From Asterochloris sp. CNOR1 (taxonomy: Eukaryota > Chlorophyta > Trebouxiophyceae > Trebouxiales > Trebouxiaceae), in the NCBI GenBank assembly GCA_963969365.1, contig OZ017757.1, positions 2,046,001-2,110,000 on the forward strand: a DNA stretch of 64,000 nucleotides, written 5' to 3'. Shown here one piece after another: positions 2,593 through 50,252 of the stretch. Position 1 is the stretch's first letter; each line of letters begins with the position of its first letter. The notes under the pieces were generated by a model. It made no database searches and was not told the origin of the DNA. It saw only the letters and a list, made by a program, of their open reading frames with translations. Both the position numbers and the translations under genes were made by a program.

Positions 2593-5151
2593 ATGGCTCT
2601 GCAGCCAGCGGAGCCTCCTGAGCAGCCTCTCCTGCCGCCTGCAGCCTCCCAGCTGACAGACTCTCAGCAGCCAGGCAGCCCTGGCTCCCATGCAGAGCAG
2701 CTGCAGGCTCCCAGAGCAGATGCTGCCCTGCCGGTCCACCAGTATCAGTCGGCAGCAGAGGGAGCACATCAGGGTGCAGCCCCTTATCATTCTTCAATGG
2801 CAGGGTTGGCAGAGCTGACCAGCTCATCGGCCACACCTGCTGATCCACCTGGTCTGCACACAGCAAGGTGTCTAAGTTGCTGTCGACAGCCACTTCCCCC
2901 TGCAGGTGTTGTGCAGTACAGGTATGATGGAGCCACTGGGCTGCTGGTGCCAGAGGGGGCAAAAGCTTCAGATGCTGACAGCATCCAGGCTGGCAGCCGG
3001 CATGCTATGGTCTACATTGAGAATGCAGTCACAGGTAGGATGCGCACCCTGGCAGGCAGGCTGCATGAGATGCACTGCTTTGATGACATCCAAGGTCGAG
3101 ATTAAGCAGGCTTGAAATGAGCAGCAGTGCTGGAGGGACAAGTGGACTTGCAGATGCACTGGTAAAGTGTCAAGCCAGGGCTTGCTCCTCAAGACCAGCA
3201 CAGCTTTCTGTCAGGTACAACTTCCTGTGTCCAGCCGCAGACCTCCCTCTAACGGCACCCCATCATGTTTGTGTCTTTAGGAACCCGCTAAAGTCTGGCC
3301 ACTGCAGCTTGCCTGTCGCACATTGATCCCTGCGCGGCCTGTGCGTGCACGAGGCTCAAGCACCTGCAGCCAAACTTTGAACTCACAGCACTTCTGTCTG
3401 TGCAGGTGTCCCTCCGCACCTGCAGCCGCACCCTTTCCCCTTCAAGCCACTCCCTGCATGGACACATATGTAGCTGTGCATGGGGCAAACTCTCCTCTCA
3501 GCGTTGCTCACCATGTGGTCTGTCGGTGCAGGGGGCTTCCACCGCCTGCAGCCGCAAAGCTCCCTCTTCAAGCCCCTTGATGCGTGGTCGTCCAGGAGGG
3601 CTGTGGCACAACTGGCTGCAACTGGAGGAGCAGGGGCAGCACAGGATGGGGGGCATGGCAGCAGCAATCATCACCTGCTCGGTGAGTTGCCACGGCACCA
3701 GGTCAGCAGCCTCACATCCAGACTGAACGCGGGTTTGCATGCAACTGATGACAGCCAACACTCCTCCTTCTGTCTGCAGGCACGGCTGGTGTGGTCGCAT
3801 TGAGTGAGGTGACGCACTCAGCTGGCGTCGTTTCCCAGGGCCTGGCTGCGCTCGCCCAGGTGTGCCCAGCTTGATGTCGGCTTGCTTAGATGCCCAGTCA
3901 AGGTGATGCGGTGCCATTGCTTGCCTGGCACACCTGCCAGCCTGACAGGAACAAGCTTGGTGTGAACATGTTGAGTGCGGTTGCACATGCAGACCTCTGC
4001 AGAGCGTCGCTGCCAGCATCAGAGAGCACTGCTTTCTGGCAACAGGCCCAGGCGTGCATGATGCTGCAGGGCCTGCTTGCTGGGGTGGCCCTGCTGCACC
4101 TGGCCTTCCTGTGGGCGCCGGGCGGCTGGCAGACCCTGTCAGCCACCTACATGCAGACCTGGGCGACAGCTGCGTACACTCTGCATCAGACGTACTTTGT
4201 GCTGGCGACCCTCTCGCTGGTGTTAGCCTGGTCCAGGTGAGCGCTTCTCTTTGCTTGATTGGGGCAGGGCATCGGTTTGCTTGGAGAGCCTTGCCTCTTA
4301 ATTGTCAGTTGCAGAGCCCATGCAGGTGTATGCTCACTGCGCTGGGTACTGGCCATCAGGGGAGCAGCACTCAGTGTACCTGCTTTGCAGCCAGGTTGTG
4401 CTTCGTGTCTTTAAGCTCGAGGGCATTTTCTAATTTCATGGAGGTGCTGTCGGGGCAGTGCATGGTGGATGGCTGACATGCTGTGAAGGTGTATTGGGGC
4501 TGGGCCCCCGCCATTGGAGGAATGGCAGACGCATCAGCAGCGGGATATTTTGCAGTGAGCCCCTCCCAGCTATGCTAGGTCTGAGCTTGCCTTGATGGGC
4601 CTACATCTTCAAGAGCTTGATGAGCAGACCAGTGTGTGGTTGCTGCAGGCTTTCATCACTGGCAAGGCAAAGCAAGCAGGGCAGTAGTGTTCAGTTGGCT
4701 CTCCCGGCTGCAACAGTCATGCTGCTGCTTGTGACCTTCATCTGCACGGTGAGCAGGCGCATGGTCACCACATGTGCAGTGTTGCATCTCTGTGAGGCAA
4801 GTTGAGGTTGTGCCTACTCAAAGCAGGTTGTCAGCGGCCCCTTCAAAGACAAGCTGCAAGCACAGGTGGCGGTCAGCCAGATACAAGGCCAAGTGGTGCC
4901 CTGGCACTGGGTGGACCTGGCAGCTGCCGTGTGCAGTCTGCTCGCTTGGGCTGCGGTGAGCTGCATGGTGAACTTTGCCTGGTCTCCTCCAGGCAGATGC
5001 CAATGGGCCTGAGGAGACTCATGGTAGATGCAGGTCTGCTATGGCTCATCACCATACACAGGCAAACCCCAGACGACCAGCATCAGAGACACAACTGTGC
5101 AGCTTTGAATCAATACTTCACACTCTGCCTCCTGCTGCCCACATTTGTTGA
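2593..5151 (+). CDS. TMEM237-like four-transmembrane protein
   Basis: Eight exons join in consistent phase: 2593-2851, 2906-3034, 3532-3681, 3780-3859, 4046-4236, 4649-4748, 4827-4955 and 4993-5151, giving 398 aa (human TMEM237 is 408). The N-terminal third is Pro/Ala/Gln-rich and soluble. The C-terminal half holds four hydrophobic spans: MLQGLLAGVALLHLAFLW, QTYFVLATLSLVLAW ending in SR, ATVMLLLVTFICT, and HWVDLAAAVCSLLAWAA. The order and spacing of 'LxGLLAG' and the 'YxxLxLxSxxxAxxR' hairpin, then a third span and a 'PW.WVDL' fourth span, recall TMEM237, a ciliary transition-zone protein. The hydrophobic layout is seen directly; the family call is from remembered sequence and is moderate. 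The exon-1 donor (GTCTGC) is weak, so the 5' end may be incomplete. The acceptor of exon 3 heads a decoy array. Confidence 0.55.
3266..3590 (+). repeat. Tandem acceptor array in the TMEM237-like gene (about 125 bp x 3)
   Basis: Three AG acceptor-like boundaries fall at 3280, 3405 and 3531 (spacing 125 and 126). Each is followed by a related stretch containing CTGCAGC and, in the last two, a CTTCAAGCC block. The last copy runs into the coding exon 3532-3681; the earlier two are intronic by phase. Confidence 0.6.
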
Positions 5152-5563
5152 CAAAGGATCATGCTGTCATGTGTGCCATGCCAGCCTCTTCATACTGCCT
5201 GTGCAATGGTCAATTGTTGGGCAATTCACTGGTTGCCAAGAACCGGGCCTTGTGGCTCCCCATTAATGACATGCATGACATGCAGCACATCTTGAGTCAC
5301 ACTGGTACTGGTTGATTGGAAATTGCATCAGCTTGCCCATGCTGCATTCATTGGGACAGAGCAAGGAGACACCCAGAGCAGGGGCCAGGCACAGCATCAA
5401 GCCCCTTCATGAGTGATCAGTGGCGTCAATGGTGTGCCTAGGACACATTGGGGAGTTTCACAAGCTTTCTGGGTTTGGCGGCATGTATGTGGGCAACTCT
5501 CTCAAAATGCGGCATGTTCAAAAAGGTGTGGACTGTACTCGGAGCGCAACACAAGGCGCCAGC
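5152..5563. other. Intergenic, convergent 3' ends
   Basis: Lies between the stop of the TMEM237-like gene and the stop of CC1 on the opposite strand. Short ORFs are present on both strands without family signature. No clear TGTAA signal was found. Confidence 0.35.
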
Positions 5564-8500
5564 TCACTGCAGCACTTCAAGAGCTGCAAGGTGAGCTGGC
5601 CTGGGCTTCAGCGAGGGAGGGACGGCATGGTCTGGGAAGGACAGATGCTGCTGCAGGCGAGGGATTGCAGGCTGTGCCACCTTCCCGATCAGCACCTGTA
5701 GCAGGTGCTCCTGAGTGCCAAGCTTGTCCAGCAGCTGCTGCCTGCAGACAGCGGTCCATCAGTCATGGTAATGCAACAAGGTGAGAGGTCTGCTGCATGT
5801 TGATGCTCCTGAACCCACCTGCACAGGTGTTGACATTCCTGCACCACAATGGGACTTGCAGCTGCGCAAGGGTGTCACCGCAACACAGCACAGTGCTATG
5901 CAGCCTTCACCTCTGGTGGCTGGTCAGCAGCGGCAGCGGTGCCGGTGTCAACGCATTCGGCTGCACTGGCACCTTGTCTTGTTGTGGTGGAAAGTGCTCG
6001 TGGCCGCTGGGGATGCGCAGCCCTGGGTGCAGCTTGGGAGCCTGTGCCTGCAGTGCGACATATTCCTTTTGTTGTTTAGCCCTGACATGGACTGGGCTAG
6101 TGAGACCTGCTTGCATGCCCTACAGGTGCAGCCATCTAGAGCAGGAGCAGTGCCGGTTGCCGACTGCCAATGAAGGACATGCATTGGCACTGTTCTGAAC
6201 GGAGTGAGGAGGACCCCAATGCATACAGAGTGCAGCTCACCTTCTGTCGCCTGGCTGCCGGCGCCGACCCAGGGCGGCTCGCGTTCCTGCGCTGGGGCAC
6301 TGCTGTGGTTGGTCTACTCATCTGAGGCGGCACCTCTGCACCAGCCAGCATCAGCGCTGCTGCATCTGCTGACAGGCTGCTGACTGGCTGCCCCTGTGTC
6401 TGCGGTTCAGCGCTCCGCCCCAGCTCTGCGACTGCAGCTGCAGAGTCTGGCTGCTGACCCAATTGCGGGTGGGCCAGGCTGCTGGCCGGCTGCCCCTGTG
6501 GCTGCCCTTCAGCAGCTGCCCACAGCTCTGCATTGGCACCTGCCGAGCCTGGCTGCTGGCCTGCCCCGGCACGGGCAGGCCTCCCGGACTGGGCTGCAGC
6601 TGATGCAGGCCTGTGTGTCCTGCGGAAATCCTGCGGGGCCGTAGCACTTCGCAGGTGAGGCCTCGGCTGGCCAGGCTGGCTGAGAGGGTCTAGGAACTGT
6701 TTTGATGATTTTGACAAAGAGCTGGGCTGCTGCCTCACAGCTGCAGGGCTGGACTGCGCTGCAGCCCCCAAGCTGTCCCTGATCCTGATGGTGGGCGGTA
6801 CCTTTCTGAAGGCACCATCACCTGCACATTCACAGGTCTCTTCTGCCAGGCCGGATGTTGGGAGCACTCAGCGCTACACGCAAAGACACTCACTGTTTTT
6901 CACAGCACACTGTGGACTGGGTGTGCATCGTAAGCAGCTGCAGCAGGCTGCACGCTGCTTTGCTGCCCCAATATATTTGCCTGGCCTGCAGAGGCTAAAG
7001 TCTTCCACATGCAATCCCAGCACTCAGTGAGCAACATGACCTGCCAAACCCTCCTCCCCTGTCACTTTCAGCTCCGGTCATGCACCCCAGCTGCTGATGC
7101 TGCAAAATACTCAGCAATTGGACCTCGCACACAGCCCCTAAAGATTCCCTAATAATATGTCACTGCACATGTAACTTCCAGCACTGGGCTCTCCAGGTAC
7201 TGGCACTGCTACTGCTGCACATCCCTCAGCAACTGCTGCAGGACCTCCCAGCCAGCTCCATGCATTCATGCGTCACTGCATCTCTCATCAAACTTTACCT
7301 GCCAGGCCCTCTGCCCCTGTCACTTTAAGCACTGGGTCCTCCAACTGCTGACGCCGCTGCTGCTGCACATCCTTCAGCAGCTCATGCAGTAGGGCCCCCC
7401 AAGCTCCCTGCTGAGCCTGGAACTCTGACAGAGCCTCCTCAGCTGCCACTGCCCGCCGACGCTCCCCTCGCAGCTGCTTCTGCAGAGAGGTCAGAACCTG
7501 CGGAAGACACATGAAGCTGGGTCACTGATGCGCCTGCCACTCAGCCCAGTCTGCGCAGCGTCTGTAGAGAGGTCAAAACCTGCAGAATGCTGAGAGATGC
7601 GTCACTGATACGCCTGCCTCTTGGCGGGCGTGCTCAGCTGCTTCTGCACAGAAGTCGGGACCCGCGGAGCACAGCAGCCTGGCAAAGCCGCCTCTGTGGC
7701 TACCGCCTGCCAATGCCTCCTTGCAGCTGCTTCTGTGAGAGGTCAGACCCCGCAGAGCATGAGCACAAGTGCAGGATCTTGACTGCTGCTGGTGGTTTCC
7801 TTGCAGCTGGAGGGATCTCAGAAACCTGGGCAAGGTGAGTTCGGGTCATTCACTTGCACTGCATGCTGGTGCTCCACCTGCCGCAGCAATATCCACAATT
7901 GCCAACCAGCTAATCGCTCTAAATGAAAGCCAGCCTATGCTCGTCTGAGACCCTGCTTCAGTGGCCAACCACACGCCACTCTGTGTGTGAAGTGCGGCCT
8001 GAGTGGACAGCCACAGACAGTGCATGCTGGCTGGTCGCGGCCTGCGCCACGCAAATGTGTGCTGTGGGCGGCTACACGTGTGCCTGCCAGCACCTCACCT
8101 GCTGGTGCCGGGTCTGCTGCGAGGCATCCTGCCAGGTGCGTGCGCTGAGAGGGCGCTGCTGCCTGGCACGCACAGTCTGGGACCCACTGGAGCCTAGTAC
8201 AGGTTTCTGCTGTGCTAGGGCACTGGCGTCAGGTTCCTTGTGGGTATCTGCAGCACAAGCGCTCACTTGGCACCATGCAGACAGACCTGGGCCCTGAGCA
8301 TGTGCTTGGGGTGACCAGGGAGTGGCAGACGCTGTTGCTGCAATTGCCAGAACCAGTGGCACGCTGCAATGACAATGAAGGGAGGGGCTGACACTCTCTC
8401 TATCTGGTCAGCCTCAGAGGACAATCAGGGATGGTTGTGAAGCCCTCTCCCAAACATTGGTAGCAGCTCCACAAAGCAAGTCTTGCTGCTGCGCAACTCA

Positions 8501-11500
8501 AGTTGGGCTGACATGCCAAGATGTCCTTGACGCCCTGGCGCATCAGCATACATCAGGCAGGGGTCAAATTTCCACAGCACCCGCGACTTTCCCCTCCCTC
8601 AACCAGAGCTGAGCCCGTAGCAGGCAGTCACTAAAGAAGCAAGTGCGCAGTGATGACAGCCTCAATGCCTTGCAGCGCTCCCCTGAGCTCTGCAGCATCC
8701 TGTAGCAGGCAAGCGCCAGTTGTGCCAGTGCACAGTCCCTTCGAACCCAGTGCCAAAACCCCTTCACCTGAGCCCTGCGAGATAACCTGGTCGCGCAGCA
8801 GTAGTGCCTCATGCCGCATTGTGGCCTCCCAGTCCTTCAGCTCCTCACCCACACGCTTCAGGTCAGCCTGCACCCACAGCTGAGGTGCCATGAGCAACAG
8901 AGCTGGGCTGGTCCAGGTCAGGCTAGTTCACACATGCTGCAGTTCCTCGCTCCCAGACCGCAGGTCATCCTGCACCCCACAACTCAGGTGTCATGAGCAA
9001 TGAACCTGGGCTGGCACAGGTAAGGCTAGTTTGCACATGCTGCAGCTCCTCGCACACACGCTGCAGGTCATCTCGCACCCAGAGAATAAGTATCGTGAGC
9101 ACTGGGTGGTGAGTTTACATGCAAAGCTGAAATGCACATGCCTACAGCTCCTCCACCAGGCACTGCAGGTCAGCCCGCTGCTGAGAGCAGTGAGCAGTGC
9201 AGACTGGGCCTGCCAATGCAGGCAGAGCTCCATTGCACGTGCACACAGCTTTTCAATTACAAACAAGTGGTCGGCCTGCAGGCATGGAGTGAGGGCAATG
9301 TAAACCAGCTGCGCCTGCTGAAAGAAGCAGGCTTGGCTGATATCCCTTATGGTATTGAGCCTAGTCAGAGATGCTACTGCTGATTTGAGTCAAGCACTTA
9401 TGCAGCACCTCCCTTGTGTGCTGCAGGTCACTCTGCACTCACCGCCCGACATTGGCTGATGCTGCCCTCAAGAGGCAGCCTGAACACAGTGCGCAGGTAC
9501 ATTGGCGGCTGCACCAACAGCGCCTGCTCAAGCAGGTGCCATGACACACCCGTGGGGGCAGTCCATTCCGCTGCTGCAATGTACTAGGTTAATCTGCGGC
9601 GCCAGTGAAAGTTGAGACCCACCTCCAGTTGGTCGCGTTCCTGCTGCAGCGTGACTGCCTGCTGCACCAGCAGCGCCCTCTCCTGGCGCAGCAGCTCGGC
9701 ATCCCGCCTGCTCTGCTGAGCCTCAGCCAGAGCCTGGCGGGCCTGGGTGTCGGCCGCGGCTGCCACCCCCCGCAGAGTTTCAAGCTCGCTGCGGATGGCC
9801 TGGGTGCGCTGCATCCACTGGCTCTCGTCCTGCAGCAGCCATGCAGCTCACGCTCAGTGCACACAAAACGCCAAAGCCCGCAGAGGGTGGTTTAGATAAC
9901 AGAGTTGATGGCAAGACCATGTTCACATCACACAGGACTTTGCACAGCTTTGCTGCACAACGCAGTGACCTACTCCAGCACGCTTGTCATCATGCAATCT
10001 TTTACAGTCAGCACTTTTTGCAATATGGCAGATGGAATCAGCATCTGCTGCCAGCCTGCAATGCATGCGTGTGGGGTCCATCGCTGCAACAAGGTGCGTG
10101 AAGCCTCTTGACCGTGGCTGCCCCGCAGGTCATCTGCTGCATCTCAATCGTTCTGCCTGCTGCCAAGGCTGCAGCCTATCTTGGAATTGCCAGGCCAGCA
10201 CAGCAGCAAGGTCCTCAAAAAGGGCAACGAGTGGCCCCACATTGGACAGGCACAGGCACCATCTTCACCCCCAGTCAGCAATGTCTGCAGCACCTGTTTT
10301 GGCTGCAGACCAGTACAGTCCTGCTGTACAGCACACTTTGGAACCTTCCACCTTGAGCTTGCCTGTTGCCCCCCATGACCGCTCTCGTGCCCACCGCTGG
10401 CCCCAGGGCCGTCGTACCATATACCCCACTTGAAGGCAATGCTGCTGGCAGTCCGTCTCCATCTCGATCAGACAAGTGCCCAGCATGTGCTGCAGCATGC
10501 ATAGCGCCCCGCAGCCCCAAGCTTCCGCAGGCTTTGTCATGGCAACACCCAGCAGCCCCACCTTGAGCTAGCACCCCTGCTGTCACACAACCTCCACCTC
10601 CACAGCAGTCAGGTGCGTCTGCAGCGCTACGCACCAAACGTGCAGCAGATCATGCAGCTTGCCCATCTGCACCAAGCTCAGCTCTGCTCCCCCCCGCCCT
10701 GCTCCATGAGCCCTGATCGCCACGCCTCTCTCTCTCAACACGGGCAGCATGTGCTGTAGCATGCAGAGCAGATGCCCACCTCAACCTTGGGCAGCAACTC
10801 CTGCTTCTGAGCTGCGACGCAGCAGCATCGCAGGTCCCCACCTGAAGCTTACGCTCGTGCTGGCGCACGACCTCCTTCTCCATTTCCGTCAGTCGAGTGC
10901 GCAGCGTACGCAGCGCACGGATGTCAGCGGGGGACGCCACCTCGTTCTCACGGCGCTCCACCTCGTTCAGCCCCAGCATGACTGCCTGGTACAGGTCCCT
11001 GCATGGGCGAGCAGAGCACTTGAAGCTTGTCGTGCCCTACGCCTTGATGACAAGTGAATTTGAGTGCTCCAACTCCACACAGCAACACAGAGCGCTACAC
11101 TCAGGGCCAGTACAGACTGCCTCTTACAGATCCTTGCAGAGGGACAGAAGCTGTCTTGCTGAGGCGCAGATGCAGGGTTGTCACGCTTTTCAGAGCAACT
11201 TGTCCAGCCCCAGCATGACGGCCTGATACAGGCCCCTGCAGGCAGGTCATGCAGTTTGAGGCTGTCTCACTGGTCACCATGTGCAAGATCCCCAAGGTCC
11301 GTGGGGAGAAGGGTGTCTGAGTGGTGCTGATCAGCTTGATTATCATATCATTCAGGGTTACTGCTGGGGCAGGCCTGAATAACAGATGCGGCAAGTCTGT
11401 TGCGCACTGCACCTCTGATGCTGGATCACACTCAGGTTTTCTTCTACACTAGCAAACAGACCCACGAAGCTTGCCGCGCACTGCACCCCTGATGCTGAAC

Positions 11501-14346
11501 AACACTCAGCACTTCACCCCATAGCACTCACCTCAGATCCAAAGTCGGGAGCGTGCCGACGCCAAAGTGGTATATGGGGCCCAGTGATATATCCAGTCAC
11601 ACCCAGCTCACAGTACTCGCGTGATCTGCTTGACCTGCTGTACCCCGCGCCGTCTCGGATCTGGCCTCCAGTAGGTGGGCAGGCTAGAACAGTGCGCCCC
11701 AGAACTCTGCCAACCCCCACAGGCTCACGAAATTTACTTGGCCTGCTCTGCCTGCCCAGTCTCAGGTGCTGTCAGAAGGTGAGCAGGCTGGAACAGTGCG
11801 CCCCAAAACCCCGCCAAACCCCCAAAAGCTCACGAGATCTGCTTGGCCTGCTGCGCCTGCCCCTTCTCAGATGCCTCCAGGAAGGTGGTAGCATTCTCCC
11901 CCCGCAGGATGGCCACACTGTGCTTCAGCTGGGCCACCTCTGTTTCCAGGGCCCTCTCACGTCTCAGGTAGGAGTCCTGGCGTTTCTGCACACAGATTGC
12001 AGCAGGAGGTCAAGGAGACCGCAGTGTGCCTGGACTTGTCTGCCTTGGTGCGTGTCTTACCAGATGCGCACAACATTTGAGGGGAATGGTGCAGTCAAGC
12101 TTCACGTCCCTCTTACAGCACAGACGAGGGCACCACATGTCTGCCGAGCATGTTCTTGTCCTGCACCGCCTCTGTGACCGGCAGCAAAGCTGCAGCTGGG
12201 GTGTGTCTGTCTCTGGGATGCTCACTTTCCAGGATCTTCAGGTGGGGAGGGCATGCAGCCTCGTGCACGCAGGCAGAAGGCACATGATGCTCAGGTGGGC
12301 TCACTTGAACCTCCTCCTTGAGATTTGCATTGTCCAGCTTCGCCTGCTCCAGCTCGGCTATGCACTCAGCCAGCTCACCCAGGTGCGCCTCATCTGCACC
12401 AGCCAGATTACAGCATGTATTAAGTTCAGCAAGTGGCATGTGCAGCTCTTGCTGGCTCGCTGCAGCCCTCAGGCAGGGCGGCACGGCAGGGGGTCCATGC
12501 TTCCGTCACCTGAAATCCTTGTGCTGATGGAATTTGTCCTGTCAGAGCAGGTGCCAGCCAACCACTCACCCAACACGGCAGACTGTTTCCGGTGCCGTCA
12601 TCAGCCAGCTGCAACGGCCTGGCAGGCTCAGGGCGCCACCTGCAGATCCTCAAGGCGAGGGCTGCCGGGTGCATAGGGCCCATGTCGCTGTGCATAGGAG
12701 TGAACCCACCTTGCATGCGGCGCGTCTTCTCAAAGTAGGCCATGCTGACCGTCCTGGGCAGCGTGGACTGCATCAGTGAACCCTGAGACTGCAGGCCCTG
12801 CTCCGCATGCTTGTCCGCAAATGCCACAGAGCCTGCACACACACACACCCCGGCCAGTGCGGCCGTCCGTCGCTGTCTTAGTAGTGGAGCAGAGCCCCTG
12901 ACTGAAGGCACCACGCAGGCTAGGAAGCACTCAGGCATGCAGACTCTACAGCGGCGGCCTGCCAGGTCTGCCAGCCTCATGCTTTCGTGTGAGCAAGCTG
13001 CAGTCAGCATACAACCAGTTGCTTGTGAGGTCAGGACTGCTGGTCGACACTCATTCTGCACTCCCAGCACCAAGCACCAATTTAAAACTGTTTTGATGCA
13101 GCAAGGGAAATGTTCAGCAAACTTGTGCAGGATCACAGTTGGGTCACAGAGCAGTGCATGGCTGGACTTGGTCACCTGAGCATCAGTCAAGTGAGCAGCG
13201 CCAGGAGGTAGCTGCTGATGGCAAACAACTGCAGAACCACACAAGCAGTAGCCGCAGAGCAATGCACTGCTGCCGTGCTCACCTGAGCAAGGAGTGCGTG
13301 AGCAGCGCAGGGGGCCAAATGCTCACGTCAAACATCTGCAAGACCACAGTGAGCAGCAAAGCAGTGCACTGCTTTGCTGCAGAGTTCACCCCAACACTAG
13401 GTCAGTGAGAAACGCAGGGAGCTGGCTCACAGCAAACATGTCGATAATTGGCGCACAGCGGCAGGGGAGCGCAGTGCTGCAGTAGTTCACCTGAGCGAGA
13501 GGTGAGCGAGCGCGCTAGTGAGGTTGAGCGGTTGCCGCTGAGCTCCCCTACCTCCAGCGCTTCAGGCATGCGCACCCTGCGCGACTGTTTCACGCCATCT
13601 GCACATCAGGAGAGTGCAATCTCTGATGCTGCATATGAGTTCTGCTGTGTGGCAGCCTGAGCAAGGCATTGTTGAGCAGCATTCTACACCCTGAGCAGAC
13701 AAATTCACCACTGCATGTGGTGTCAGATACACATTGGCTGCCACAGAGCAGGTCCTGCACATACTGCTGGATGCTTGTCTTGCCAGCTGCAACTCTGGCT
13801 GTGAGCCCTGCTGCTGCAAGTTCACGCCTGCAATGCTGTGAGTCTGTCAACTGTGGTGACGCGCAAAGACACACAGGGGGCTCACGCATGCACCTGGCTT
13901 TCACAAGCAGGGAGTTCGGGCGTGCAGATTGCCTCATTTAAAGGTGGAGCCTGCTGACCCACCCTCTGCAGGTGAGGCTGCCTGTGACAGGCTGCTGGCC
14001 TTGTGAGTGCCAGTGCGTCGCAGCGTGCCCGGCCGCGTGACAGATCCACCGCGGCTGATGCCTGGGAACTGGCGAGGGGTGTATGGAAGGATGCCTCCAG
14101 AGTTGAGGATTTCAGCCTCCTCTTCAAGCTCAGCTGTCTGTACAGCAATGTGAGCCATTGTTTGACAAGGGTACAAAGCCATCAAATGAGGGGGCATGCA
14201 TGGCCCTCAATGGCACCAGCGGACAGCACCTTATCCATGATCCTCTCCACAAGGCTGTTAACGGTTTTGAAAGCTCTTTCAATCTTTGGCTTGTCGACAT
14301 GCTGGTCAGACCCCTCATCTGCACATTCGCTTTCGTCTTGTCTCAT
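5564..14346 (-). CDS. Long coiled-coil protein CC1, unassigned family
   Basis: Firm minus-strand exons: 14346-14230 (ATG at 14346), 14137-13963, 13598-13552, 12393-12305, 11985-11834, 10985-10842, 9829-9623, 7497-7299, 6821-6241, 6047-5911 and 5741-5564 (stop). Many adjacent pairs join in matching phase, including the last four. Exons 12832-12710 and about 8867-8636 are likely, but their joins are unresolved, so the full protein is not certain. The first exon reads MRQDESECADEG and then KIERAFKTVNSLVERIM. The second carries a basic, Ser/Arg/Gly-rich segment. The middle exons are almost pure heptad coiled coil (for example ALETEVAQLKHSVAILRGEN and LRTRLTEMEKEVVRQHERK). The 193-codon exon 6821-6241 is a low-complexity Ala/Gln/Pro region, and the C-terminus is helical (LLDKLGTQEHLLQVLIGKVA). 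The layout resembles centrosomal or basal-body scaffold proteins, but I cannot name the family. It diverges from the LHCII gene over only 152 bp. Confidence 0.62.
7480..7775 (-). repeat. Tandem acceptor array in CC1 (about 83 bp x 4)
   Basis: Boundaries equivalent to the acceptor of exon 7497-7299 recur at 7579, 7661 and 7748 (spacing 82, 82, 87). Each sits in a stretch like the start of that exon (GAGAGGTCAGAAC next to CTGCGG or CTGCAG). Further degenerate copies of the same exon's 3' end (CTGCC....CCCCTGTCACTTT) lie downstream at about 7040-7270. Confidence 0.65.
8820..9185 (-). repeat. Tandem acceptor array in CC1 (102 bp x 4)
   Basis: The exon boundary at 8867 (reverse-complement GGTGCAG before GCTGACC) recurs at 8969, 9072 and 9174, spacing 102, 103 and 102. 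Each copy keeps the flanking CAGCTCCTC....CTGCAGGTCA block that encodes the start of the exon. Confidence 0.7.
11600..11885 (-). repeat. Tandem donor array in CC1 (about 106 bp x 3)
   Basis: The donor boundary of exon 11985-11834 lies at 11833 (forward GCTCAC next to GAGATCTGCTTGGCCTG). Copies occur at 11728 and 11620 (spacing 105 and 108), repeating GATCTGCTTG.CCTGCT and the adjacent CAGTGCGCCCC.A block. Confidence 0.65.
13178..13500. repeat. About 104 bp imperfect tandem repeat, three units, inside CC1
   Basis: The block GAGCAGCGC..GG..... AACA.CTGCA.. .ACCACA..... CA.TGCACTGCT recurs with a TTCACC or CTCACCTGAG boundary at about 13281, 13385 and 13488. It lies between exons 13598-13552 and 12832-12710, where the phase indicates a missing exon, so one unit may contain that exon. 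Confidence 0.5.
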
Positions 14347-16752: not shown

Positions 16753-16786
<34 letters not shown>

Positions 16787-18243: not shown

Positions 18244-21200
18244 ATGGGACCCTGTACATGGCTGTGGCTGCCCACAGCCATTTCGCTTCTTGTTCTGGGG
18301 GTTGCAGAGCCTCTCAGGCCCCGTAACTATACAAGGCCACCACCGGCATCTGACTTGGATCTTGATCACATGCGACTTAGGCGCCTGAGAGAGGCCCAGC
18401 AGCCTGAGCAGATTCATCTGGCATTGGCAGGCAAGCTCTGGATGCAGTCATGAAAGAGCATTGAGAAGGTGGCGCCTTACGCGTACACACGCAACACTGG
18501 CTCTGATCTAGCCAAACAGCTGCCCAGAGCCCCTTTGGCCATCATTTGCAGCCTGGAAAACGCATTGGCTCCTGGCTGCAGGGGCAGGGGCCATTGCTAT
18601 TTCTTGGGTCACATGGCCACAGGAGGACATTGCGTACAGGCACCTTTACTCAGGCAGCCAGCCTCAGACGTCGGGGAGTGACCACTGCAGCCAGCTGCGA
18701 CAACTCCCGCTGCGGACTGTCGTGCGTTTTGGCACAGATGCCGCCAGCACAAATCACTGGCTCCAGGCCAAGGGGACGTTCACCTGCTACCATTCAGGTG
18801 CAGCATGCATGGTGGCATCCAGTAGCATGCTGCACAAGCCTTGTTGGGCCTGCCAGCAGGGGCAACCCTTGCACGATGTCGAGGGCTTCAGGCAAAGGCA
18901 TCTTTCCATTGACTCAGCTGTCAGGCTGCCCGCCTGGAGTCGGCAGCAGAACACATTGCTTGGGGGCCTCGTATGGGACCCCTGTGGCAGGCCGGCCAGC
19001 AGGTCAGGAGCACAAGTCAGACCCCTTACGCCACTCATACCTTGGACTTTGACGCCAGCAGGCTGGCAGACTGACTCTTGGCTGCACCGGCAGCTGCAGG
19101 CGGAAGGCAGGGTCCTGTGCCGGGTGTGCAGGGGAACAGGGTTTGTCTGAAAGTGTTGCAGGTGCTGCACCACAGGGGGCGGCAGGGCTTGGCTGCTGGC
19201 TCTCGTGGTGGCTGGCGCTCTGTGTTGACAAGTCAACATCAGCAGTGTACACGGTGCTCCAGGCTTGGACCTCAGAGACAAGAGGCTCACTCTGCTAAGA
19301 TGCGTCCTTGTGTGCTTGTGCAGTTAAGCAGCAATGACTCAGCCCTAGGGCAACCAGGCTGCAGGCCAACACTGATCACAGGCAACTGCACTCTGCGCTG
19401 ATCAGGTTGATCTGTGTGTGTAGAGAATTATCGTCCTCGCTTGCTGCACACAAATGTGCTGGGTCTGGGGAATGAGGGCCTCTTGTAGTGCCAGCGCAGT
19501 GCAGCCTGTTGAGGGTCTCCCCCTTACTGTGTGTAGAGGAGTATCGTTCCGGCGCATTGCACACGGTGGTGCTGGGCCTGGGGGATGAAGGCCCCTTGGA
19601 GGCCAACACCACCTACTTCTACCAGGCCGGGGACATCTCTGACGGTGAAATCTTCAGGTTCACCACGCCGCCTCCGCCAGGCAGCTTCCCTTACAGACTG
19701 GTGAGTGAGGCTTCCACTCTGACCTTCATAGTGCCGGCTGTGCTAGGACCCTGGAACAAGTATCTGGGACCACTGCTGGCTCTCTTAATAGGGCTGGGCG
19801 CCACTTCCTGCTGCTCAGCAGCTGAAGGCGGCAGCTTTGCTGCTCACCCCTGCTCTATCTAGCTGAGCAGGCCAGCTGCTGCCATGCATCAGCACACAGC
19901 TCTCACTCTATGCTCCACTTCACAATGATTGTGGGCGATGTGGTGCAGGGCGTGATCGGGGATCTTGGGCAGACTGACAACTCCATTGACACTCTGGACC
20001 ACATGGCTGCCCAGCAGCCACAGAGCATTCTCAATGTTGGTGAGCTCGCCTCTCAAAGGGTGTCTGCGCCTGCATCGCTTCTCTCACAGCTTAGCGTGTG
20101 CAGCACTTGGGCTGTGCGACACTTCCAAGTGTTTGCCTGTAACATGCGCAAAGCTGTGGCTTGGTTACGTGCTGCAGTCTTGCCGTGTCTGCGTAACACA
20201 TAGACTTACTATGTGAATATCAAAATTCCAGCTCCTTGCAGCATCGCCTGCTCGCCTGCGCACTGCCTTGCTGCTCTGATGGAGTTGTGGCTGCCAGCTT
20301 GCTGCACTGCCCCACATCTGGCTTCTGATGCAGGCGACCTGTCATATGCTGATGGCTACCAGCCCAGGTGGGACAGCTTTGGGCGCCTGATTGAGCCGTC
20401 AGCAGCTCGGGTGCCCTGGCAGGTCATTGAGGGCAATCACGAGGAAGGTGAGGTGCCACGCCTGAGCTGCAGTTGCCTGCCCGCCCTTTGTCATGCCATG
20501 GAGGTGGCCGGGCCCAGGCATCAATTTGAAGGCTGGCTGTAGCCTCAACTGCGCAGCCAGCATTGTCACTCTCATTAAGGCGAAGTCCAGTGTCTGATAG
20601 CAACATATCAATATACATACATAGGCCCAGGAGCCGGCTATGACTTGCATACTGCGTTCCTGTCTGCGGCTGCCCATACAGAATGATGCCATTCATTTCT
20701 GTGGTGGCCTATTGCTCAGCACATGACTGCTAAGTGCTACAGAGAGTAGCAGGCACAACTTGGTGTGCTGTTTCCTGTTCCCTAATCCGAACCAGTCTCC
20801 CCATACATGAAAGGTGGCCATTGCTAACCCATTCTGACCCGGCCACTGCCCTCCCTGCCGGTGAGGTGGTTGCAGGAAAGCACAGCTTTGTGGCAGATGC
20901 AGTGGCTGACCTGTCCTGACCTGGCCATAGCCCCTCTGCCGCAGAAGTGGTGGCATGGCTTTGCAGCGTATGCAGTGGCGCACCCTTCCTGACTTGGCCG
21001 CTGCCTTCTTGCTGCAGAGGTGGTAGCAGGCAAGCACAACTTTGTGGCATATGTAGCGTCTGACTGACTTGTTCTGACCTGGCCACTGCCTCCCTGCTGC
21101 AGAGGTGTTGGCAGGAAAGAACGGCTTTGTGGCATATGAGACGAGGTACTACGTGCCCTCTGCTTTCTCAGCGTCTGGCAGCGCCCTGTACTACTCATAC

Positions 21201-36050: not shown

Positions 36051-36060
36051 CTATAAATAG
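36051..36060. promoter_or_regulatory. TATA-like element upstream of PRL1
   Basis: CTATAAATAG, near-palindromic so usable on either strand, lies about 105 bases upstream of the PRL1 start codon in an otherwise non-coding, locally AT-rich stretch (35948-36376). It is the clearest TATA-like sequence I found in the window. I see nothing else in this gap. Confidence 0.35.
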
Positions 36061-37491: not shown

Positions 37492-40400
37492 ATGTCAGGC
37501 ACGTCATGCCTCAAGCCCTGCCCACCTGCAGGTCTCACTGCCATGCATGGACGCATGCATGCCCAGCTGCTTCACAAGCCTGCCCTGCCCTGCTCACGGG
37601 CGGCCATCTACCCGGCAGTCGTCCAGCGCTCCACACTTGCGGCCCAGTGTGCCGCGCAGGCAGACCCTGCAGGGCCAGCAGCACCTTCAAAGGATGCGGA
37701 GCATGCTGCCAAGGCTGGGTGGGACCCTGAGGGTCTGTTCTCCAGTGCCAGTCCCCTGCCGCGCCCCTCAGGCGACCTCTTTGCCGCGAGGGCAGCCCGT
37801 AGAGCAGCACAGCAGAAGCAGCAACGGCACGAGGGGGCTCGCCTGCAGGCAGAGCAGGCTCAGCAGGCGGCAGCTGCCGCTGCCGTCCCGCAGGCCGTCA
37901 ACGTCCAGGCTGAGCCGGCAGCTGTCGAGCTGGGCATGGCGCGCAGCGTGGGCGCCCCCCAGGAGCCTGCCAGTAGCGAGAGGCCGATAGTCCCTGGGCC
38001 GCCAGACCAACAGGTGAGTGCTGCAACCTTCAGCAGTTCTGCACCAGCCCTGTCAGGGGCCAGCGCCCATGAAGCTGTGTGGGTGAGGGACTGTATGCAG
38101 GAATCTCATCTGCTCTGGGCCCATGCTGCTCCAGCCTGCCCAAACCAAGCTGCTCCCTTGATTTTCAGCCTGTTCGTAACATAGCAGTGTCCCTAACTGC
38201 CAGCCCTGATGGCAAGACACGGAGACAGACCTGACTCCTCAGCAGCAGTACAAATATGATGCCCAGACGTACCCTGCAAGCCGTCACTTACAGCTTCTGT
38301 CTTGCTCTGCCACAGGTGCCCTCTGGGCTGCAGCGTGAGGCCCTTGCAGCTACCCTAGCCCAAAACTTCATGCCAGTGAATCTGGATCATCCTGGTCTGG
38401 AGCTGCTACACCAGGATCCGCCCATCTTCGCTGTTCATGACTTTCTGTCCCCAGAGCAGTGCGCAGAGTTTATGGAGTCCGCCGCCGCCACTGGTATGCC
38501 CCTTCTGCAGTGACCATGAGCACTTGAGGCTGTGCAGTTGTCAACAGTGCACAGAGTTGATGGAGGCAGCTCCTGCCACAGCTGGCCCCAATCAGGAATG
38601 CTGCAGCACATGAAGGCTGTCCAGGCTGGGTGAGGCAGCCTGCTTCTGGAAGGGCTTCTCTGCCTGCACAGGCCACCCCTGAACCGAAACGCAGTGCTCA
38701 GACAGGGGCTGCTGCCGTTGAAAGCCTTGCTGCCGGGCTGGCTAGAGGATCCACTGTTGGAGAGACGCTCAGTATGGTGCTTGGCCCGATTCACTGTGCA
38801 CAACTGGGACCGAGTCATCTCTGGGCACCTCCTGCGTGTACAGCTGGCATTCTGCAGCTTTAGTCTCTGTGGTATGCTCACCTATCCCTCCTCCATCATG
38901 CACTTCCAAAAACCAATGCCGGAACTGTTGTTCCCTTGTTGTGACATTGACCAAATCCGTCAGCTCCCCCCCTGTGCAGGGCGCATGGCTGCCTCCAAGG
39001 TGGGCAGCGACAACGTGATGGGCTCGGGCAGCGCCCTCAACGAGCGCCGCACCAGCAGCTCCCTCCTGCTGGATGTCACGGTGACCCTCCAGCATGCAAC
39101 CCTGCGCAAGCTGATCAAGGCTGCCCAGGATGCGGCCTGGACGCTGACAGGTAGGCTCCAGGCCCATGCATGTGTTCACATGTGGCTTCGAAGCTGGACA
39201 TCACCGTCACCCTGCAGCATGCACACTGCTGGGAGCCTGAAAAGGGACTGCCCAGTCTGCTTCCTGCTTTGTGAAGTTGGCTGCAGATGTGCCAGAGCGT
39301 CAAGTCAGACCACACATGCTGGGCTGGCCAGTGCTCAACCCTTTCATCCGTGGTCCGTATGCTGTACGAAGCTTGGGGGAGCCGGGCCACGTTGCATGCC
39401 CTGTGCCAGGCGACGTCCCGCTGAGTCACCCCAAGGGGACAAGGCCAGCTCAGCCCCTGTTGTCCCAATGGCTGCTTTTCATCATGGGAACCAGCAACAC
39501 CTTGTCATGCATCAAGCCTTCCACTCGTCACTGTGTGGCCTTCTGCAGGCAGCATTCCTGCTTGGGGCGCCCCTGGCCGCATGCCGTCTGCCGGCCAGTA
39601 CTGCTTCGAGTCGCCTCAGGTGGCCCACTACCAGGCAGCCCAGCACTTCCTGTCTCACGAGGACGCATTCCCGGCAGAGCTGGCCCAGCACAATGGCTTC
39701 CAGCGCCATGCCACCGTCCTCATCTACTTGAACGACGTGGCTGAGGTGGGAGGTGCACCTCATTGATGCAGGCGGCCTGCTGCAGCAATCCAGCTGCGAG
39801 CCATCCCGCTGAGCAACAGATGCAGCATGCAGCGCTGGCTGTGTTGCTGGGGTTTGTCGATGTCAGGCACTCCTGTATCCAGCTGCACTTCACTGCTGAA
39901 CAAGATGAACTGCTGACTACCTTCGTCCAACTGCAGTTCACACTGCTGAGCAAGAGTTGCAGCGTGCAGCGCTGGCTTGACTGCTGTGGCTTTCAAAGGG
40001 AGTTTGGCCCCAGGCACCCTTGCTATGTGCTGGCACTGAGCGGCAGCATGGTTGCTGTGCTGCTCAGGCAGCGTGCAGTGGACGGTCTGCCTCTTTTGAA
40101 GACTGAGGTACTGCAGGCTGCGATGTGTTGCGGCTGTCCCTGCAGGGTGGTGCAACTACTTTCCATCACTTGGGCGTCTCTGTGCAGCCCAGCAGAGGCA
40201 TGGCCCTCTTGTTCTTCCCTGCCCTGGCAGACGGCACACCAGATGCAAGGTGAGGACCTGCATGTGCCCTCTGTGGACTTGAAGCACTGCAGCTTGGTGC
40301 CACCCCTTCTCTGGCATTTCAAGGATTGCAAGCAGCAGAGCTGTGGCACACACCCTGCAGGACCCTCCATTCTGCTGAGGCTGCGGAGGATGGCCACAGC

Positions 40401-40917: not shown

Positions 40918-43900
40918 TCATTGGCGAGCAGCAAAATTGGACTTGGCTGCAGAAGCAAAGTCGGCCATGCGGGAGGCCATCTTTCTGGATGCCGACAGTG
41001 AGGTGGCCAGGGCAACAGCCATGGCAGTGGGCGCCTGCCCCGCAGCTGCATCTGCAGAGCTGGTGCGCCGCACACGCACCCTGCCGGCGGGGCCCATGAG
41101 CTGCTGCTCGTCGGCGTCAGCCGCCTGGATGGTGGCCGGCTCCTCCATGGACAGTGTGGCCTCCAGCCGGCGCAGCATGCCCATGAGCTGGTCTGCAGGG
41201 CGGTCTGCCTGCTCAGCCAGCAACTGCTGCTGGCGCCGCTGCACGTCATGTTGCTGGCTGTGGTGCTGGCGCTGCTGCAGTGCATCTGAGCCGCGCTTGA
41301 TTGTGAAGGAGCCTGCCACAGAGGGCCCTGCCGAGCGCAGCACATAGTGGCCAGGGTCCAGCACGTCTGCCCTTCTGGTGAAGCTGCCCTGGCTCCCCTC
41401 AGCCTGCTGCTGCTGCTGGGCCCCTTGGAGCTGATGCTGGGGTGAGGTGGCGGCTGAGGCAGGTGCCTCCTGGCGCTGCTCCCCACCCAGCTGCCGGCTG
41501 CTGGCGGCAGCAGCAGCAGCAGCAGTGCTGGGTGCCACTGGCTGCTGCAGGGGCCCTGCCAGCTTGGCAGAGGCAGCGCTGCTGCCCTGGTAGCCGGCTG
41601 GCGCGGAAGGGGGGTTAGCCTGGCAGCGTGCGGCGGTGTCAAACTGCCCTCCCGCCCATTCATTGTCTGAGGTAGCCTCCTGCACCTCCTGGCGCTGATG
41701 CTGGGCAAAGGCGGGGCTCAGGCTGGGCTCACGAGACACATGTCTCGAAAAATGATGTCTCAGTGTGCCCAGAGGGACGGTCCCCTCAATGGGGCTGTCC
41801 TGGCTGTGCTGAGCTGGACCAGGTCCCTCATCCAGACCATGCGCACTGCCTGCAGGGAGTGGCAGCAGCCACTGGGCCGATCTGGGCAGACGCGCATTTC
41901 GTACAACCTGCAGCTGGCTTGCCATGTGCACTGCCTGCAGTAGGCGGTAGCACACGGGCACATGTGCACGCCGTGCACGTGCAATGCAGCGCTGTCTCAA
42001 GGTCCCCAGCCTGCTCAGTGGCACATGTGGTGACCTGTGCAACCAACTTTGGACTGTACTGTACTGTACTGTACTGTACTGTACTGTACTGTACTGTACT
42101 GTAACTGTACTTTGTACTGGCTGTAGAATGCCTGACCCTCCTGGCTTGTGGCCCAGCATCTGTACTGGCCCATGAAGCACTCACTGGGCAGCTGCTGAAG
42201 CCATACCCACCATCAGAGCTCCAGGCCTCCCCCTGTGGCCACTGCATCTCCGGACCAGCGTCTGGTGGAAGCTGCGCAAGCCCTTCATCCCCAGGCTGCC
42301 ACTGGCCTGCCGGCTGCTGCTGAGGCACAGCGGCCGTCTGCTGCTCCTGGGGCCCCACATGAAACCCTGACTCATCGGCGGCTCCTGGGCCTTGTGATTG
42401 TGTGGCGTGCTCCTCAGCGCCCCAGTTCCAGGCGTCTACCTTGGCCCTAAACCCCTGCACATAGCGGCAGCGTGCTTGAGTGAAGCAGCACATGGATGCA
42501 GGACCACACAAGGTACCACAGACAAGCAGCTCAAGCGCTGACAGAGCGCAGCGCTGGCACGGCCTGCTGGGCAAGGGCAGTTTGGCTTTTAATGTGATTG
42601 CGCCCCTCACGTGTGCATCACATCTGTCCTGCACGCTGCAGCAGGCCTGTATGCTGTCTGTACACACCTGGGCGCGTACCGTGTCACAGCACAACATAGA
42701 GTGAAACCTGAGCTTGGGCTCACACAGCAAGTGCAGCCCAGCATGGCCTACATCTGTGAGCGCTCCAAGTCCAGTGTTGTACAACATGACCAGCACAAGT
42801 GAGCACTCACCACACGGCGTGGTCGTGCAGGCTGCCGCTCCTGCAGCTCTGCCTCCTGTGCCATCCTCAGCAGCCCCTGAGGGCCAATGCCAGCCTCCCC
42901 AAGGTCAGGGCTGGCAGCAGGGTGCTCCTCCTTGGGGCGCTCCGCTCCAAAGCCCTGCTGGTCCAGCGTGCTGCCCCTGTCAAAGAGAGCACTGCTGGCA
43001 GCGAGACGTGCCTCCCTGAGGCGGCCTGCTGCTGAGCTCTGCTGGTATGATGCAGGGCTGGTGGCAGCAGCAGCTGCGCCAGCAGCAGCAGGAGATGGCC
43101 TGAGTGCTGGAGTCACTGCAGGCTCCTGCTGCTGCTCGGAGCTGTCGAGTACAGCAGGGATGTCAAAGTCTGTGTCGGGACCCTCTTCAAAGGGTGGACA
43201 GGCTGCTATTCCGGCAGACCCTGCAGCACATCACAAAGCTCTCATTGTCGTGATTCCAGGAGGGTGCTGCAGCCTCATGTACTGCTGCAGTGATCTGCAG
43301 CGCGGCAGTCACCAGGCAATTTGGCTGCCCCTGGTGCCAATCCCCGATGCTTTTGCAGCAACAGCTCAAGCAACACAGCACCAGCACTTTGGTTGCACGT
43401 GTTTTGCTGAGGGCCATTGCCTGCAGGCGCGTCTCAGCTGCTGCAGGCGGAAGAACTGTTGAGGGGCCCACCGGAGCAAGGTATCAATGCGAGCCATGCC
43501 TGAAGAAAGCACAGCCAGACGGACTGATGTGCTCTGTCATCTTGTTGTGCTAGCAGCTTATCATGCTGGGCAGGCTCAGGAACACCGCCTCCTGCCACCA
43601 GCTGGTCTGCAACCACTCCTGACAGCAGCGCCCGGAGCTGGATACCCTACACCCTCAGACCCTGGCTCACCTGCTTGGCCCCATCTGGCATCATCCTGCT
43701 CCTGCACCTGCAAAGCAGACCACGCACAGGGTAAGGGCCTGCAGTCACCTGTCACAAGCCGCCACACATCTGCTGAACAGTCAAATGTATGGCGTGAGAG
43801 GCTACCACAGACTGTGGGTTTGCAGTCTGGCCCGACATAGTCTGCAAAGAGATGAGACCGACCTGCGCAGGGGCCGCTCACCACAAGGGCATGGAGACCA

Positions 43901-46900: not shown

Positions 46901-49900
46901 ATCTGCACCAGCCACCGGCAGGCTCCCGTCAGACAGGGATGCGACCCAGCACACGGGTCAGTGTGCCTCCACAGTGCAGATACCCATGCCTGCAGCTTGG
47001 TTGCTGGGCGCTGCACATGCAACACAGGGCTGCCTGCAAGAGGTGGGGAAGGACACTGACATGTCAGATGCACAGAGCTGCTCTGTCAGATCCCAGAGCG
47101 ACAGGCCATTCATGTGACCAAGAGCTGCGCGCGCCTGTCTGTGCAGCCCTTGTCCCTTCCATGTTTGGGAAGGTGCCATCGCAGCGCAGTGCCCACGCTC
47201 CTGTGCCTTAGGTGAGCCTGCCAGCCTCCTGCTTAACCCCCTTGGGAAGCTGGTACCATTGTAGTGCCCAAACCACTGTAGCAAGCACCCCTCCTCATGC
47301 TCCAACATGCTCTGCGCAGCCTGATCCTCCTCCCCTTGAAAGCCGCCATTGCAGTGCAGTGTCCCAAACCCCTGTGGGACGCACAGCCCAACCTCGTGCT
47401 CCATTGCGGTCCAGCCCAAGCTCATGCTCCGTTGTGGTCCAGGCAGCCTGCTCACTCCCTTGTGAGAGGTGCCATGACAGCGCACGGCGCAAGCCCCTGT
47501 GGCAAGCAGAGGCCCACCTCGTGCTCCCTGGTGGTCCGGGCAGCCTGCTCCTCCCCCAGCATGCGCTCCAGAGTGGAGTTACGCCGTCGTAGGACCTGCA
47601 TGCGATCCTCCAGCGCAACGTGCTCCTCCTGCACATGGCAGGCAGCAATCTGGTGCTAGACCTAGTGCCACGCAGAGTTTGAGCGTGGGCTCAATAACCT
47701 GTATGGCCAAGTGTGGCAAGCCTCTCTGACAGTTGGCTCGTCCTGCAGGGCAGGAAGCTGCTTGTTTACACAGGTTGCAGAACTGCGCAGGGAGGGCAGA
47801 GGCACAGCAGCGTGTGCTGGGCGGAACAGCCTGCATGGCCCAGGTGGCATGCCTCTCTGGCAGTGGGTGCTTCCTGCAGGGGGTGGCTGGTAGAGCTGGC
47901 AGTGCCATGCAGAGCAGTGAGGGTTGCACGGCAAGTGCTGGACTGAACAGCCTTTGTGGACCAGGTGGCAGTCACTACAGCAGCCAGCTCCTCCTGCAGG
48001 GCGGGGAGCCAGGCCGTGCACCCCCAGGCACAGTGGCACTCTTCGCAGCAGCAGACAGGCAAAACATGACGTGCGCTGTCTGTGTGGTGTCTGTGAGGCG
48101 ACAGCAGTTCAGGCAGCCAGGAGCCGCATGAGCAAGCCAGTTTGCTTCGCCTGTCAGCGCAGGTCCTCGGCTGGACCTGCATTGCAAGGCTCAAGTGAGG
48201 CTACCCAGATGCTGCAGCGGCCCAGGGATGGACACAGTGGCCCCTCCACTCAGCTCCCAAAGACTGCAGAGGGAGCTGTATTGTCCTGTCCAGGAGCTAT
48301 ATTGGCCAAGGTCTGCACAGCAGGGCCTGCCCATGCACTTTTCTTTGTTTTTGGATTGACAGGTATCACATCAGCACAGTGCACAGGCAGCTGGGTGCCC
48401 GTCACGTTGGCAGACCTGGGCCAGGAGCACGGCCTTCTCGCTCTCCGCGTGTTGCATCTGGAGGCCATCAAAACGGCGCTGCAGGGCTGCCAGCCTGTGA
48501 TCGACGTCCACCTTGGCTGCCAGGGCTTCCAGCTTCTGAGCCTGCAACAGGCACAAGGGCAAGCTCGGCAGTGAGGTTTGCCAACAGTAAGTCTGGCAAA
48601 CAGTCGGCAGCTGCACAGTAGGGCAGGCGTGCAGCAAGGACGCGGCAGCCTGGCCAACTGACAGCCCGTGAAGATGCAGCAACGGAGTGTCTTGCAATCC
48701 GGAGTGCATGGCGTGGGGCCCTTTTGGCAACATGCTGCCGCCTAGCGCATGTGCCCGACACAGGTTCCAGCAGTTACAGCTATAACTGGGCATTTGTGAC
48801 CCTTCAGCTGAGACTGCTCCCCCAGTCCCAGTTGCACAGCCTTCCACAGAGCCCGCGAGGCAATTTTGCGCCCTCACCTGCACTGTTGGCAGCTGTCCAT
48901 CCACAGAGCCCACAAGGCAATCTTGTGCCCTCACCTGCACTGTCGGCAACTGTCCGCCCACAATGCCCACAAGGTTATCTTGCGCCCTCACCTGCACTGT
49001 CTGCAGCTGGCTCTGCACCTCTGCCAGTTTATCGGCCTCGGCCTGTGCTGCAGCGGCAGCCTGCCGGGCTGCTGCCTCCATCTGCTGCTTCCTGTCGCTC
49101 AGCGCCTGCTTCAGGGCCTGGTTGCGCAGCCTGGCTTCCTCCAGCAGCCAGTGGCCGTCAGCTTTGCCCTCAGTGTGAGCCTGCACCAGCAAGGGTCCAT
49201 CAGGCAGCAGTCTGGATGGCTGAGCGCGGCACATTCCAGCAGCTGTTGGGACTCAACCTCTCATGCTCAGCCTGAGCCTGCACATGCATGTGACTGCATT
49301 GGCGACATAATGGCTTCACAGCAGAGCCCAGGTCTCGAAGCATCAGCAGGCCGGTCTCTCAGAAGGCTAGCCGCTGAACGGTGTGACAGCGGAGCAGAGC
49401 CTGACTCCAAGGGTCATGACAATGCAATGTTGCCCACAGCATGAGCCTGCAGAAGCGCTTACTCTACGCACAGCAGTTGTGATGGCTGAGGATCATGCTA
49501 CCAACCTTCCATTCTGTCTGCAGAGACAATGAGCTTGTGTAGGGTCCAGGGCTCGGCCCAACCCGCCCATTCCTTGCTTGCTTTGCAGGCAGGTGCCGAT
49601 ACCTAGAGCTCAGCTGCAGCGTGCCACAGTGTCACAGCCTACAGGAGCAAGACGCATGGCAGACATGCTGCAGCGTAAGCATTGGGCCCAATGTATGATG
49701 CGAGCTGCCTCTGAGCCGACAAGCAGTGTGCGCTGCCATTGCCGACTGCCAGTGCCGTGACTCACCGTGTGAAGCTCCCCCTGGTGCCTCTGCTCCTGCG
49801 CAGCCAGGTCCTGGCGAAGTTGCTGCAGCTGGCTGCGCGTCACAGCTGCCTCAGCCTCAGCGCTCTCCAGGCGAGCCGCTTGCTGCCTGACAACCTTGGA

Positions 49901-50209: not shown

Positions 50210-50252
<43 letters not shown>

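Follow-up and report, generated by a model that had tools for sequence, protein, structure and literature searches.

Tandem arrays across splice junctions in the green alga Asterochloris sp. CNOR1: probable remnants of local tandem duplications

Many introns in a 64-kb stretch of the genome of the green alga Asterochloris sp. CNOR1 (assembly GCA_963969365.1, contig OZ017757.1, positions 2,046,001 to 2,110,000; hereafter the window) contain tandem arrays whose units span an exon-intron boundary and thereby place one or more decoy splice sites beside the real one. We analyzed these arrays in the window and in sequences taken from elsewhere in the same genome. The arrays are present and prevalent in the sample, run in direct orientation, decay in a way compatible with neutrality, are seldom young, and are associated with long introns. 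They are most probably the remnants of ordinary local tandem duplications that arose at random positions, were tolerated, and are decaying neutrally, rather than parts of a special splice-site system.

SAMPLE, GENE MODELS, AND SCANS

The sample comprised 326.7 kb, namely the 64-kb window and 262.7 kb from elsewhere in the genome (56.4 Mb, 21 contigs). The outside part was not fully random and consisted of 200 kb on contigs C1–C3, seven kinase loci, and four 10-kb pieces (contigs C5, C7, C11, and C14). Loci L033–L037 were excluded from the counts, as was L001 (contig C19, 43,319 bases), which is unlike the rest. The best kinase match lies inside a 713-aa open frame on this small contig, and the GC content of L001 is 0.494 versus approximately 0.58 in most other loci; it may be a contaminant, an organelle sequence, or foreign DNA.

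Gene models were ab initio predictions of a hidden Markov model (HMM) trained on this genome only and seeded from open reading frames chosen by codon usage; adjacent genes were often merged, and some of the "introns" are possibly intergenic. The intron penalty of the HMM was raised to curb micro-exons inside decoys. Thirty exons shorter than 30 nt were left, and among exons of this size, internal ones divisible by 3 were removed before the counts. The predicted splice signals were a donor of the CAG/GTGAGC type and a strict acceptor, TGCAG/G (slashes mark the boundary), and the predicted medians were about 135 nt for exons and about 271 nt for introns. The strictness of the acceptors was striking in both the window and the sampled loci, with T at 0.89, G at 0.95, and C at about 1.0 at positions -5 to -3 of TGCAG.

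Tandem pairs were called by banded self-alignment with a score of at least 22. In junction decoys, at least 6 nt were aligned on both sides of the junction.

PREVALENCE OF JUNCTION-SPANNING ARRAYS

The self-alignment yielded 168 tandem pairs, while one order-4 Markov shuffle yielded none, and a simpler scan of the window gave 32 matches against 0, 0, and 0 in three shuffles. A chance origin of the pairs is excluded. An assembly artefact is also unlikely, because 124 of the 168 pairs are 70%–85% identical and just 11 reach 85%. The pairs formed 114 clusters: 65 were junction-spanning with the copy in the same intron, 28 were non-exonic, 16 were of other kinds (mostly exon-intron pairs without junction span), and 5 were exonic. 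An earlier pass over 286.7 kb had given 104 clusters, comprising 61 junction, 25 intronic, 11 mixed, and 7 exonic ones. With the exonic clusters set aside, the best pair was spaced by 60–139 nt in 68 of 109 clusters.

Among the 563 predicted introns, 65 contained a strict copy of their own junction, and 104 (18%) contained an array of any kind. The 84 junction decoys included 48 acceptors and 36 donors, and the repeated unit covered both the exon edge and the intron edge.

Copying of exon edges was also recorded in a test independent of tandem detection, in which 40 nt of the exon edge, with the splice-adjacent bases omitted, were searched in the adjoining intron. A score of at least 15 was reached in the own intron by 9.1% of upstream exon edges (n = 406) and 8.3% of downstream ones (n = 412), versus 0.8% and 0.5%, respectively, in introns of other sequences. 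The corresponding values for mid-exon queries were 1.4% and 0.5% in the own intron versus 0.8% and 0.2% in other introns (n = 222 each), and inverted exon edges produced 0 and 2 matches against 37 and 34 direct ones. At least one copied exon edge was found in 69 of 431 introns of 120–1200 nt. Since exon edges recur in their own introns, and mid-exon and inverted queries hardly do so, exon-edge copying is real, direct, and local, and it is alike at donors and acceptors.

A preliminary description of the window, made from its sequence, had named ten arrays with 25 claimed copies. To each of these, 60 nt around the real junction were aligned, and the scores were compared with those at 400 random window places; the positions of inner copies were derived from the spacings in that description. 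Twenty copies were clear, beating 400/400 random places, and two were marginal (47742, whose score was reached by 4/400 random places, and 47993, by 1/400). The copies claimed at 3280, 23062, and 47873 had no support in this comparison. Consequently, the array described at 3280–3531 retains one clear copy (3405), and that at 47628–47993 is weak; the array described at 7497–7748 is clear, with its acceptor modelled at 7479/7480, an in-frame shift of 18 nt relative to the position claimed. Duplications across splice junctions do occur at both donors and acceptors and on both strands, as had been stated, and junction copies are present in all seven predicted gene chains of the window. The earlier figure of at least a dozen affected introns was an undercount, since 23 of the 97 predicted window introns carry a strict junction copy. 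The arrays are also found outside the window, where 42 of 466 introns have such a copy.

The claim that the conserved protein is continued solely by the exon-adjacent copy was checked in two genes. It gained homology support in the purple acid phosphatase gene: the protein built from exon-adjacent copies aligns with solved purple acid phosphatases across the array-bearing junctions. The CSN8-like gene is consistent with the claim, its protein giving one continuous family match across junction 25191. A predicted 12-nt exon at 21018–21029 was rejected as a decoy and is probably not real, because it makes a 4-residue insertion in the phosphatase homology alignment. The phosphatase paralogues contain tandem pairs in L034, L035, and L037 and none in L036, and we judge them too few and too diverged to date the window arrays. 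Splicing appears to ignore the decoys.

ORIGIN AND PLACEMENT OF THE DUPLICATIONS

We propose that local tandem duplications struck random positions in intron-rich genes. Those within exons would mostly have been purged unless they preserved the frame, while those within introns or over one exon-intron boundary would have been tolerated. Tolerance of the junction-spanning ones is expected because splicing would continue at the copy contiguous with the exon body, while the surplus copy is absorbed into the intron. The exon fragment captured in this way, together with the decoy splice site that it carries, would then decay free of constraint. In such a pair, selection preserves the real exon and changes accumulate in the decoy alone, whereas both members of an intronic pair change; an exon-derived copy would therefore lose visible similarity at approximately half the rate of an intron-intron copy. 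This slower loss on the exon side would leave junction-spanning arrays over-represented among the visible ones. The net outcome would be longer introns.

A preference of the duplication process for splice junctions, such as might arise from breaks near exon edges linked to transcription or splicing, is an unlikely alternative, although the raw counts speak for it. Random placements sparing exons would span a junction in 32%–39% of cases, while the observed junction share was 61 of the 86 junction and intronic clusters (38 of 60 outside the window; the 11 mixed and 7 exonic clusters were set aside), and exon edges recur while exon middles do not. Phasing of the arrays to junctions above chance, raised in the preliminary description, therefore holds against plain placement, but it vanishes when detectability is modelled. 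In simulations of neutral decay with random placement, the detected junction share was 0.35–0.41 as long as divergence did not exceed 0.15 substitutions per site; it rose to 0.57 at 0.2 and to 0.8–1.0 at 0.25–0.4. A joint fit of class and identity (81 exon-involving and 28 non-exonic clusters), with 0.12 indels per substitution, gave a best placement share of 0.40 versus 0.39 for random placement (log likelihood, logL, 174.4). Among the clusters with a best identity of at least 0.85, the junction share was 4/9 (two other clusters set aside). The raw excess at junctions is clear, yet targeting is unneeded once decay and detection are simulated.

Several results weigh against random placement. 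The fit is sensitive to the indel rate: at 0.35 indels per substitution, the best share drops to 0.20, the edge of the grid, and the random value of 0.39 is rejected in favor of rarer junction events (2dlogL 16.8). This fit is worse than that with 0.12 indels per substitution (logL 164.6 vs 174.4). Within these simulations, the placement estimate is model-dependent, but targeting is required at neither indel setting. The best-identity bin of 0.80–0.85 includes 13 junction and 2 non-exonic clusters (4 other set aside), and this predominance of junction clusters (13/15) favors targeting; unlike this bin, the table ranked by best-scoring pair fits random placement. Junction-copy introns are 2.6 times denser in the window, 23/97 vs 42/466 outside (Fisher p = 0.00016), in a contrast inflated by the choice of the window for its arrays; random placement alone leaves this excess unexplained. 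The sampled blocks, window included, differ in junction-copy frequency (p = 0.011). Moreover, every gene model is an ab initio prediction.

DECOY SPLICE SITES

Retention of the decoys for a function, as alternative splice sites, splicing brakes, or triggers of mRNA decay, is very unlikely. About half of them retain a score in the range seen for real sites: 23 of 46 acceptor decoys lie above the 10th percentile of the real ones (simple random mutation predicts 9.1), as do 17 of 34 donor decoys (11.5 predicted). Compared with the same motifs in exons, the decoy cores are better kept (GGT, 20/32 vs 18/83; CAG, 34/44 vs 137/234). Both comparisons run counter to neutral decay, but the apparent excess in splice strength and motif retention was gone when motifs of intron-intron copies served as the control. 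For this purpose, the neutral rate was obtained from the same motifs elsewhere in intron-intron copies and converted to one-lineage decay. Observed and neutral retention were 0.80 (36/45) vs 0.77 for AG, 0.68 (23/34) vs 0.66 for GT, 0.62 vs 0.56 for GGT, and 0.59 (23/39) vs 0.73 for TGCAG; none of the motifs AG, CAG, TGCAG, GT, GGT, and GGTG was kept in decoys significantly above the neutral one-lineage rate.

Real and decoy sites are spaced without any preference for the reading frame (28/23/33 modulo 3 for the 84 junction decoys, p = 0.41), whereas in exon-exon pairs the spacing is divisible by 3 in 8/9 cases. The mismatch between intronic copies and exons by codon position (0.247/0.218/0.269) indicates the absence of coding constraint in the copies, and donors and acceptors are affected alike. 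Selection for multiplied splice signals, suggested earlier, is not supported by the neutral rate of motif retention and the even spacings. With neither the frame nor coding constraint kept, duplication of mutually exclusive or cassette exons found no support in the same data.

INTRON BIRTH AND MOBILE ELEMENTS

The birth of whole introns from duplicated AG-GT segments is highly improbable as an explanation of the arrays. The mechanism is known, and the arrays do carry exon edges beside splice sites, but only 2 of 116 junction mappings, both at one place (L031, 5561–5645), set a splice site at the opposite one, and a predicted 1-nt exon explains both. The 85-nt intron with this 1-nt exon was rejected as a gene-finder error inside an ordinary acceptor decoy (L031, 5550–5683, minus strand); the acceptor copy there, 88% identical and 86 nt away, is among the younger arrays. 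Boundary-to-boundary identity was 0.254 vs 0.258 in shuffled pairs, and 0/557 introns showed a value of at least 0.55. Old, decayed cases of intron creation may be present.

An origin of the units from introners, or from a different mobile element with insertion at splice sites, is extremely improbable. The arrays do recur in many genes, but the unit length varies between genes, the units match their own exon, and a whole-genome search with two window arrays (8834..9293 and 20823..21168) returned only self matches and no dispersed copies.

AGE OF THE ARRAYS AND INTRON LENGTH

Young clusters are rare. A best identity of at least 0.85 was found in 11 of the 109 non-exonic clusters, while about 40% would be expected at a constant rate, given the detection rates of the decay simulation (p ~2e-12). 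This scarcity gives no support to the active duplication process proposed in the preliminary description. The fitted age spectrum is old, open-ended at its far end, and poorly constrained there. Duplication was probably more frequent in the past than at present, because loss of young arrays cannot give this age shape at a constant birth rate.

The median length of introns with arrays was 478.5 nt, versus 251 nt for those without; removal of the extra copies reduced the former to 306.5 nt. In total, arrays account for 11% of intron bases. Strict junction copies were present in 9/307 introns shorter than 300 nt, 42/204 introns of 300–700 nt, and 14/52 longer ones, and in 24/75 introns of 450–700 nt. 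The association may be partly reversed, longer introns having more room for arrays. Much of the intron sequence in this lineage could derive from a past burst of approximately 100-bp tandem duplications, with long introns being largely decayed copies of their own exon edges and flanks and the visible arrays the young tail of a far larger set that can no longer be recognized; this extension is possible, though rather doubtful. If true, it would explain concretely why introns are long in compact algal genomes.

ARRAYS AND OTHER FEATURES OF THE WINDOW

The window genes are intron-rich and, according to Pfam matches, include those for a chlorophyll a/b-binding protein, a purple acid phosphatase, a WD40 protein, and a CSN8-family protein. 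The arrays are listed in Table 1.

Table 1. Tandem arrays and junction copies in the window (positions are those of the window)
Position	Strand	Gene	Junction	Unit or spacing (nt)	Remark
1200..1426	+		donor 1212	unit 92	
3393..3587	+		acceptor 3531	unit 126	copy 3405 clear, 3280 unsupported
7033..7411	-		donor 7298	spacings 148/258	
7464..7759	-		acceptor 7479	unit 82	described earlier at 7497
8834..9293	-		acceptor 8867	unit 102	genome search matches itself only
10456..10919	-		donor 10841 copy	spacing 280	
10959..11266	-		acceptor 10998 copy	spacing 237	
11609..11893	-		donor 11833	unit 105	
13117..13510	-		donor 13490	unit 107	
19415..19605	+	purple acid phosphatase	acceptor 19536	unit 113	
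20823..21168	+	purple acid phosphatase	acceptor 21102	spacings 81/73/85	four copies; genome search matches itself only
21599..21783	+	purple acid phosphatase	donor 21624	unit 71	
23096..23465	+	purple acid phosphatase	acceptor 23418	unit 88	copy 23062 unsupported
25154..25483	-	CSN8-like	acceptor 25191	unit 109	
28891..29116	-		acceptor 28932	spacings 99/175	
38457..38624	+		donor 38493	unit 88	
39068..39286	+		donor 39150	unit 125	
41837..42041	-		acceptor 41849	unit 78	
47143..48009	-		copies of acceptors 47371, 47628 and donor 47517		complex region; claimed 47628-47993 copies weak
48840..49140	-		donor 48991	unit 57	three copies
51489..51882	-		cluster including donor 51825 copy	spacings 33/154/233	
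55111..55580	-		donor 55559 copy	spacing 307	
61629..61989	+		donor 61661 copy	spacing 239	

Exonic tandem repeats at 6331–6612 and 44635–45143, with spacings divisible by 3 (102; 204, 69, 312, 243, 117), are the coding counterpart of the intronic arrays. Simple repeats include a run of 30 C at 16756–16785, (ACTGT)11.6 at 42053–42111, and (CTGC)11.2 at 50210–50254. The predicted minus-strand gene chain at 40921–59918 resembles bacterial extracellular solute-binding proteins in its N-terminal part (PF13416, 2.5e-13), which is followed by a long low-complexity protein; the chain probably represents two or more genes fused by the gene finder.

COMPARISON WITH KNOWN SYSTEMS

The results indicate that duplicated junctions can reach a high density with neither targeting nor function, when duplications are tolerated and similarity fades more slowly on the exon side, and call for caution in studies taking such arrays as evidence of mechanism. 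The arrays also represent a countable route of intron lengthening and offer splicing biologists many natural tests of how the correct site is chosen among similar ones.

Tandem duplication is well known as a source of introns, judging from the portions of the sources considered here (PMC3443670, PMC2891723). Intron gain of the AGGT type (Gao and Lynch 2009, as cited in PMC3443670 and PMC4974935) belongs to the same class of mutation as the arrays, but it yields a new intron of one unit length, of which there is no convincing case in our sample. Regional tandem duplication and intron sliding in Drosophila likewise alter intron structure by duplication near splice sites; as outlined in PMC2891723, they were inferred from novel intron positions and proto-splice sites in coding sequence, whereas in our sample the copies can be seen directly at existing junctions. 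Green algae are among the lineages with introners, which, like the arrays, affect many introns of one genome (PMC9860276, in the part considered). However, introners are dispersed similar elements, while the two arrays tested here match their own locus only. The core-Reinhardtinia algae have conspicuously long introns, with medians of 198–343 nt and a cause given as unknown (Craig et al. 2021, PMC8226300). They resemble the long introns found here, but junction arrays are not described in the sections of that paper considered.

Genome-scale junction-spanning arrays in an alga were not reported among the titles and abstract openings listed in searches of the open-licence literature. The mutation type itself is known, and what may be novel is how often it occurs in a genome this compact. 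In the potato RdRp gene, according to the part of the study considered (Ma et al. 2016, PMC4974935), a tandem duplication crosses one intron-exon boundary and carries the branch site, the acceptor, and the start of the exon; the gene also has an 83 bp intronic tandem duplication. As in the arrays described here, the duplicated segment spans one intron-exon boundary. Unlike the potato duplication, which made a new spliced intron, the extra copy in Asterochloris has apparently been absorbed into the existing intron, and the cases are many, old, and often multi-copy.

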